Source: a virus. From it: 29,188 bases of DNA. Where the stretch lies: positions 1 through 29,188 of the IMG/VR virus record IMGVR_UViG_3300030333_003183; one strand, written 5' to 3'. Under the pieces are notes generated by a model. That model was not told where the DNA came from. It searched no databases and saw only the letters and a list, made by a program, of their open reading frames with translations. The position numbers were made by a program, and so were the translations under genes. Every line of letters begins with the position of its first letter. Within the stretch, counting starts at the first letter, position 1. Shown here piece by piece: positions 28,080-28,532 of this stretch.

Positions 28080-28108
28080 ATTTTACACAAAAAAAGAGCA
28101 TCTGTCAA
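28080..28108 (-). promoter_or_regulatory. Sigma70-like promoter for the thyX operon, -35 inside a terminator loop
   Basis: Minus strand TTGACA (28103-28108), 17-base spacer, TAAAAT (28080-28085). Five of the six -35 bases are in the loop of the upstream terminator hairpin (28093-28120), and the spacer is the 3' stem plus the T-run. Transcription would start about 28073, 15 bases before the first ATG. Confidence 0.65.
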
Positions 28109-28120
28109 GAGATGCTCTTT
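28089..28120 (-). terminator. Intrinsic terminator after the riboswitch-controlled peptide gene
   Basis: An 11-bp perfect stem (AAAGAGCATCT / AGATGCTCTTT) with loop CTTGAC on the minus strand, then a run of T continuing from the stem end (A7 on the plus strand at 28089-28095). It lies 18 bases downstream of the stop of the 40-residue peptide gene (28139). Confidence 0.88.
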
Positions 28121-28295: not shown

Positions 28296-28338
28296 CGTTC
28301 CTTTAGTCGGCTTTTGCGTCTCCCGAAGGAGATGAACG
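28296..28338 (-). ncRNA. Glutamine-riboswitch-type aptamer, copy B (proximal)
   Basis: Minus strand: CGTTC ... GAACG outer stem (P1), hairpin TCTCC-TTCG-GGAGA, then CGCAAAAGCCGACTAAAGG. It has the CGTTCA/GACGCAA/GGAACG core of the glnA and Downstream-peptide class. Compared with copy A it lacks two bases of the conserved AAGUA element. It ends 34 bases before the start codon of the 40-residue peptide gene. Confidence 0.75.
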
Positions 28339-28341
28339 ATC

Positions 28342-28393
28342 CGTTCCGAGTCGGCTTACTTGCGTCCTCCTCTAGCAATGAGGAGGATGAACG
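28342..28393 (-). ncRNA. Glutamine-riboswitch-type aptamer, copy A (distal)
   Basis: Minus strand: CGTTC ... GAACG outer stem, hairpin TCCTCCTC-7-GAGGAGGA, then CGCAAGTAAGCCGACTCGG. The order CGUUCA-CC...GG-ACGCAAGUA...GGAACG is the consensus core of the glutamine riboswitch (glnA / Downstream-peptide RNA). It lies 3 bases before copy B, making a tandem, and starts just after the predicted transcription start. Confidence 0.85.
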
Positions 28394-28394
28394 T

Positions 28395-28412
28395 TGTGTT
28401 AATACTAACACA
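28395..28412. repeat. Perfect inverted repeat over the riboswitch promoter -10
   Basis: TGTGTTA-ATAC-TAACACA, 7-bp arms around 4 bases, centred on the -10 hexamer. It could be an operator or a hairpin at the start of the transcript. Confidence 0.7.
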
Positions 28413-28430
28413 TGTATAGTATATAGTCAA
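28402..28430 (-). promoter_or_regulatory. Sigma70-like promoter of the riboswitch transcript
   Basis: Minus strand TTGACT (28425-28430, 5 of 6), 17-base spacer, TAGTAT (28402-28407, 4 of 6). The start site would fall near 28395, immediately upstream of the first aptamer stem. The region 28431-28532 contains no gene that I can support. Confidence 0.6.
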
Positions 28431-28532
28431 GCACTTGTGTAACATGTGATACAAAATCCTGTGGCTCAAAAAATTTGGGGAGTTTTTTTTGCCCGATTTT
28501 TGAAAGCTAAAGTCGATTTTGGTGGCCAGAGA

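Follow-up and report, generated by a model that had tools for sequence, protein, structure and literature searches.

The leader and its surroundings

The window analysed here, the whole 29,188-base stretch of one virus record, carries T4-like cyanophage genes (ten proteins scanned), among them those for thymidylate synthase, a single-strand DNA-binding protein, ferredoxin and DNA endonuclease V, which supports the phage origin given in the original prediction. On its minus strand lie two adjacent stretches of glutamine-type aptamer sequence, copy A (28393-28342) and copy B (28338-28296), separated by a 3-nt linker. The CGUUC/GAACG arms, internal hairpins and core that had been described for them are all present in the sequence.

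Copy A begins with CGUUC (28389..28393), the 5′ strand of the predicted outer P1, followed by the P2A hairpin of 8 bp with a 7-nt loop (28365..28387), a loop that may carry an ORF in relatives. The A core CGCA-AGUA (28357..28364) supplies AGUA as the 5′ strand of loop E, and its third base, C28362, is predicted to pair with G28295 beyond copy B. The P3 5′ strand AGCCGACU (28349..28356) has its partner in copy B at 28312-28305. The inner P1 (28334..28346) joins the 3′ strand of A, GAACG (28346-28342), through a GAU loop to the 5′ strand of B, CGUUC (28338-28334). Copy B continues with the P2B hairpin of 5 bp and a UUCG loop (28319..28332), the core CGCAAA of the inner site (28313..28318), in which C28316 would pair with G28341, the P3 3′ strand AGCCGACU (28305..28312), and AAA, the loop E 3′ strand, together with a GGAACG that contains the outer P1 3′ strand (28296..28304), directly followed by G28295. 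Both P2 elements of the window are plain hairpins without an ORF.

Downstream on the same strand are the AGGAG Shine-Dalgarno site (28273-28269) and the 40-codon ORF with two TYRGIK motifs (P0001, 28261-28139) that had been reported to follow the copies. The 40-residue product belongs to DUF4278 (YRG; phrog_5049), matching PF14105 at 29.8 bits against a curated cut-off of 25.3, in agreement with the short YRG peptide anticipated there. A hairpin and T run after the ORF, recognised by eye in the sequence, resemble an intrinsic terminator (28088..28119, minus strand).

Upstream, a predicted sigma70-type promoter (TTGACT, 17 nt, TAGTAT; 28402..28430, minus strand) is a consensus match rather than proof, and upstream of it lies a putative NtcA-type box, TGTA-N8-TACA (28438..28453, minus strand; TGTATCACATGTTACA in the window). 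Of 313 distinct upstream 60-mers, 210 contain GTAN8TAC (shuffles: mean 4.7, maximum 9), which is centred 51-53 bases before P1 in 161 of those 210; box sequence and enrichment both point to an NtcA-regulated promoter. Predicted NtcA sites of T4-like cyanophages are already in print (PMC3037559, excerpt). The -10 box is overlapped by a dyad whose arms vary (TGTGTTA/TAACACA, GGTATG/CATACC, AGGTC/GACCT), at 28395-28412 (minus strand) and also upstream of relatives; the best dyad arms reach at least 6 bp in 174 of 313 upstream regions versus 24 of 313 shuffled.

Relatives comprise 431 viral loci among the matches listed, the window included, mostly fetched by motif patterns; the five motif scans fixed CGTTC and/or GGAACG for most loci. 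The A-then-B arrangement was parsed 377 times in these 431 loci, the window among them, and given this recurrence its presence in the window is not chance. Sixteen loci were fetched by blastn similarity to the window rather than by motif, and all 16 parse. Two duplicates of the window (L001 and L002) were left out of every count, and nine of the 377 pairs, with odd P3 lengths, were dropped from alignments A1 and A2. Twenty-one A matches have no parsed B: 11 lie at contig ends, nine have no CGTTC within 7 nt (of these, three are at contig ends and three look like chance matches), and one is inside a contig. The next gene encodes a YRG peptide in 349 of the 377 elements; 12 have an ORF lacking YRG, some of them truncated where the contig stops, and for 16 no start was parsed. 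As a candidate expression platform, the outer P1 tail may compete with the Shine-Dalgarno site: the predicted pairing is strong in two leaders with GGAACGCUC (L003 and L018) and weaker in the others shown, and Shine-Dalgarno pairing averages 0.61 over 218 distinct leaders.

A core divided between two copies

The glutamine-I aptamer consists of P1, P2 and P3 with a loop E motif (PMC6698751, excerpt). In the parsed phage pairs, copy A carries one loop E strand, AGUA, but lacks GAA; copy B carries the other strand as GAA or AAA (AAA in the window, GAA in most relatives) but lacks AGUA. Loop E and P3 are thus split between A and B rather than contained in one copy, and the P3 strands, mostly 5 or 8 nt, are unable to make a proper local hairpin. 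The composite outer aptamer does possess both loop E and P3, with AAA replacing GAA in the window.

The original prediction read the pair as tandem aptamers. In the usual sense these would be two independent glutamine-I sites side by side with a steeper dose response, as described for bacterial doublets. Tandem glnA RNAs are indeed known (PMC2864571, excerpt), and 157 doublets and 4 triplets of tandem glutamine riboswitches have been counted (PMC9481103, excerpt); the phage leader shares with them its two copies, and copy B of the window on its own exceeds the Rfam gathering score. The bacterial tandems that we fetched are of this independent kind, each copy complete with its own AGUA, P3 and GAA, in a scan that itself demanded AGTA in each copy. 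In contrast, no phage copy holds both loop E strands, so that neither is complete in the manner of a tandem riboswitch, and the phage copies appear interdependent. A local AG/CU P3 in each copy was considered and rejected, being only 1-2 bp long with uncompensated variation. Linkers measure 3-6 nt in 187 phage pairs and 6-24 nt in 35 bacterial pairs. The exact A-core pattern, which variants would escape, was found in none of the 386 genomes of the phylum of G001 (the cyanobacteria check) and in none of the 120 loci from the scan of bacteria.

The second loop E strand is GAA or AAA in phages and GAA in the listed bacterial tandem copies. Together with the preceding U, GAA or AAA reads as the stop codon UGA or UAA; AAA is about as frequent with hairpins (61 of 204) as with ORFs (58 of 171).

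A covariance search, proposed as the check on the assignment, divided the two copies. RF01739 matches copy B at 36.0 bits, over its gathering score of 35, which supports the glutamine-riboswitch type, whereas copy A reaches 23.4 bits, under gathering (E 0.0088 in a 451-base search), and the glutamine-II model RF01704 yields 24.3 bits against a gathering score of 33. In all three elements tried of the class with 5-nt P3 strands (L143, L160 and L136), RF01739 aligns the element as a single aptamer at 41.0-43.6 bits, running from the 5′ strand of A to the 3′ strand of B with an inner part of 38-39 bases in the P3 loop. For the window, L003 and L007, all from the 8-mer class, its alignment covers just copy B, at 36.0, 33.5 and 33.3 bits, respectively, the last two under gathering.

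One glnA element, a 99-nt match of 44 bits, has been reported from cyanophage S-CREM1, and the excerpted text of PMC9964418 mentions no nested or split structure. It is the same kind of phage element, and its 99-nt annotated feature runs from A 5′ to B 3′; our own Rfam run aligns copy B alone, at 33.5 bits, versus the published 99-nt, 44-bit match. Copy-by-copy homology searches can misread such elements.

With the glutamine-I class (glnA motif, RF01739) the phage element has in common the CGUUC/GAACG P1, P2, CG[x]A, the loop E strands, the long-range closing pair and a DUF4278 gene downstream; it differs in a core split over two copies that have P3 in common, a second site that appears circularly permuted, and P2 loops that may carry ORFs. 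A CGCA core, a G after GAACG and the short peptide genes of picocyanobacteria recall glutamine-II (RF01704), but the phage loop E strands and P3 fit glutamine-I.

Covariation of P3 and the pocket-closing pairs

In the 5-mer class, the A strand makes five standard pairs with the B strand in 59 of 59 loci. In the class to which the window belongs, with 8-mer strands (n=124), two positions are mostly non-standard, C.A in 120 and A.C in 96 of the 124, and the end pair is U-A in 94, A-U in 19, G-C in 4 and other in 7 (three of them U-G). For rarer A variants, fetched separately, the partner was predicted, and the end pair is standard in 189 of 190 new-locus elements. Over distinct rows, the nested structure, with copy A outermost on the 5′ side and copy B on the 3′ side, has 83.0% of cells paired and a covariation of 0.316, equalled in 0 of 500 shuffles; the side-by-side structure has 73.3% paired and 0.045 (38 of 500 shuffles). 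The 5-mer class alone gives 96.6% paired and 0.235 for the nested structure (0 of 500).

P3 covariation on its own would fit equally well a pseudoknotted dimer in which P1 forms side by side within each copy and P3 forms between copies, and the pairs that close the ligand pocket bear on this alternative. P1 of glutamine-I terminates in a long-range pair that corresponds to C19:G41 in glutamine-II, and the ligand is contacted by the G59:C1 pair, G22 and C58 (PMC6698751, excerpt). Loop E and a pseudoknot of one pair that is supported by covariation (PMC12510878, excerpt), and loop E and the long-range contacts of G22 and G23 (PMC5393176, excerpt), are likewise described. We took as closing pair the third base of CG[x]A, x, with the base directly after GAACG, y, counted on the printed glutamine-II sequence.

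The x of copy A and the base after copy B are Watson-Crick in 377 of 377 elements (C-G 245, G-C 132), and this is where the long-range pocket-closing pair of RF01739 is found. The inner pair, x of B with the base after A, is complementary in 367 (failing in 10). Pairing within a copy holds in 246 of 377 for A and 237 of 377 for B, failing in 131 and 140, respectively. Among 185 distinct elements, the A-B, A-A, B-A and B-B closing pairs number 185, 153, 180 and 149, versus shuffle maxima of 145, 156, 176 and 154. Both outer states occur on the same P3 strand (AGCCGACU, C-G 80 and G-C 16; AGCCGACG, G-C 112 and C-G 6), inside a group with a common P2A hairpin motif (G-C 7, C-G 5) and inside one ORF family (G-C 17, C-G 7). 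The closing-pair changes in these sequences therefore look repeated, on counts that ignore kinship on the tree. The inner pair has flipped to G-C at 11 loci with two P3 types; the inner site has no loop E.

The closing pairs thus obey the nested topology rather than that of the pseudoknotted dimer. Furthermore, the GAA/AAA strand of loop E is joined directly to the P1 strand of B, and canonical connectivity therefore needs A on the 5′ side with B on the 3′ side. We regard the dimer as improbable. For two independent aptamers, failure of the own-copy pairs in 131 and 140 elements adds to the missing loop E strands and the uncompensated local P3, and that reading is very improbable; we rejected the simple tandem on the covariation. 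Since covariation joins the copies in one nested structure, the sharper response from two independent sites proposed originally is not the likeliest reading, and coupling through the shared helix is likelier.

At the level of sequence, covariation establishes the shared P3, the closing pairs of both sites and the P2 pairing across embedded ORFs presented below. We conclude that the 5′ leader of this phage gene for a DUF4278 peptide probably forms a single element, an interlocked double aptamer of the glutamine-I type. The outer site would be canonical, with P1 formed by CGUUC of A and GAACG of B, P2A, a loop E made of AGUA from A and GAA or AAA from B, and a P3 with one strand from each copy. 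P3 would in turn be closed by a second, circularly permuted site consisting of the inner P1 (GAACG of A with CGUUC of B), P2B and CGCAA of B.

Thermodynamic folding agrees with the nested form, which has the lower energy in all 32 elements tallied (34 were evaluated, two being of other P3 lengths) and nearer to the minimum-energy fold in 31 of the 32; the minimum-energy fold of the window comprises the outer P1 and the inner hairpin. This is weak evidence, because close inverted repeats favour the nested form anyway.

Genes in the P2 loops and a proposed mechanism

At least one P2 loop carries an embedded ORF, of 48-75 codons, in 206 of the 377 elements. The P2A/P2B combinations are hairpin/hairpin in 162, hairpin/ORF in 130, ORF/ORF in 39 and ORF/hairpin in 35; in seven more, A is cut by the contig start (two of these with an ORF in B), and four are of other kinds. 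An ORF was assigned when it started no more than 24 nt from CGTTC and ended near the core. GTG and TTG were allowed as starts, and all 70 distinct A ORFs (61-75 codons) and 163 distinct B ORFs (48-66 codons) begin with ATG. In 158 of the 163 B ORFs the stop, UGA or UAA, lies in the core and consists of the last P3 base and loop E; A stops vary in position, with 29 of the 70 inside the core and 41 just upstream of it. Changes by codon position, 289/204/783 for A (43 pairs) and 1406/701/2558 for B (160 pairs), make the ORFs look coding. The P2 arms still pair across them, averaging 5.87 pairs versus 4.19 shuffled in B and 5.50 versus 4.05 in A (0 of 5000 shuffles in each case).

Alignment of 21 chosen embedded-ORF proteins shows two invariant cysteines. 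None of six such proteins exceeds a Pfam cut-off; against PHROGs, one matches phrog_6471, three match phrog_504, one matches phrog_504 only at E 0.089 and one matches nothing, both families being of no known function. Among 16 loci fetched from 121 phage records with a blastn match to the window, 12 carry at least one embedded ORF. Embedded ORFs are annotated as hypothetical proteins in P-HM1, P-HM2, P-SSM4, P-SSM3, P-RSM6, S-SSM4 and P-SSM7; one is unannotated in P-SSM2 and one in DSL-LC03, and three other records have no annotation. An ORF in the B position at L127 encodes an A-type protein (HWTIKC family) that ends in a B-type DAKAD tail, a sequence that suggests exchange between the two loops.

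Such features could also arise if the cores were conserved chiefly because they code for protein or serve as seams for recombination between small genes of the phages, glutamine binding having been lost. In ORF-bearing relatives the B core does encode the C-terminus and stop in frame, and ORF and hairpin interchange between close relatives: L094, which of the fetched loci matches the window best, is 95.1% identical to it across 143 bases (through copy A) and 86.7% identical across 181 bases (starting at about the copy B core), and it has a 65-codon ORF in place of the P2B hairpin of the window. However, the 162 hairpin/hairpin elements, which lack an ORF there, conserve the cores and pairs as well, and the pair changes are compensatory. 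We therefore consider this explanation most unlikely.

Within an interlocked double aptamer, both sites would bind L-glutamine, and binding at one would help the other through P3. The glnA and DP aptamers are glutamine-binding elements that activate expression (PMC6316151, excerpt); by analogy with these cyanobacterial riboswitches, the bound leader may favour translation of the YRG peptide at high glutamine. With the NtcA-type box, the gene would read both 2-oxoglutarate and glutamine. DUF4278 spans the N-terminal portion of IF17, a factor that inactivates glutamine synthetase (PMC6316151, excerpt). The function of the YRG peptide in this system and the sensing of host nitrogen, which the original prediction had ascribed to the leader, are matters that we infer, the latter made more plausible by the NtcA-type box upstream.

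In relatives with P2 ORFs, ribosomes on the ORFs and the folded aptamer would be mutually exclusive. A more elaborate and quite tentative proposal is a ribosome-gated topological switch. The four P1 strands could adopt two mutually exclusive pairing schemes, one side by side and one interlocked; glutamine would lock the interlocked form with its two cooperating sites, and translation of the P2-embedded genes, which start in or beside P2 and stop in or near the core, would open it, so that embedded and downstream genes would be controlled reciprocally.

The glutamine-I class, its tandems and a phage glnA element are already known; within the literature searched, which leaves most subscription papers aside, the interlocked topology and the embedded ORFs appear to be new. 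Neither an interlocked glutamine riboswitch nor an ORF in glutamine-riboswitch loops was found in that literature, including the excerpted texts of PMC9964418, PMC9602691, PMC7760959, PMC2864571, PMC6316151, PMC11288750, PMC9481103, PMC9004378, PMC3037559, PMC6698751, PMC10085705, PMC5393176 and PMC12510878. Permuted hammerhead ribozymes are described in PMC10085705, and glutamine is absent from its main text. Two-copy aptamer riboswitches are known; two ligand sites interlocked via one helix, one of them circularly permuted, were not met in the literature searched, nor were small genes within the loops of a riboswitch aptamer. Many of the sampled cyanophage contigs carry the element, an NtcA-type box stands in two thirds of the upstream regions, and the family of the downstream gene is tied to glutamine-synthetase control; viral reading of the host nitrogen state therefore becomes testable.

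Variant arrangements occur among the loci. Three (L439, L450 and L474) have a solitary copy A with a hairpin and no CGTTC after it, GAATGCC or GGATGCC and an ATG standing directly next. One (L066:6504-6824) is a three-part element of copy A, an ORF, and then a second A-type core with a B core, in which the first A strand is unmatched by the B strand that follows. A PhotoRC-II RNA (57.1 bits) lies at L143:1021-1116, on the same viral contig as the L143 element.
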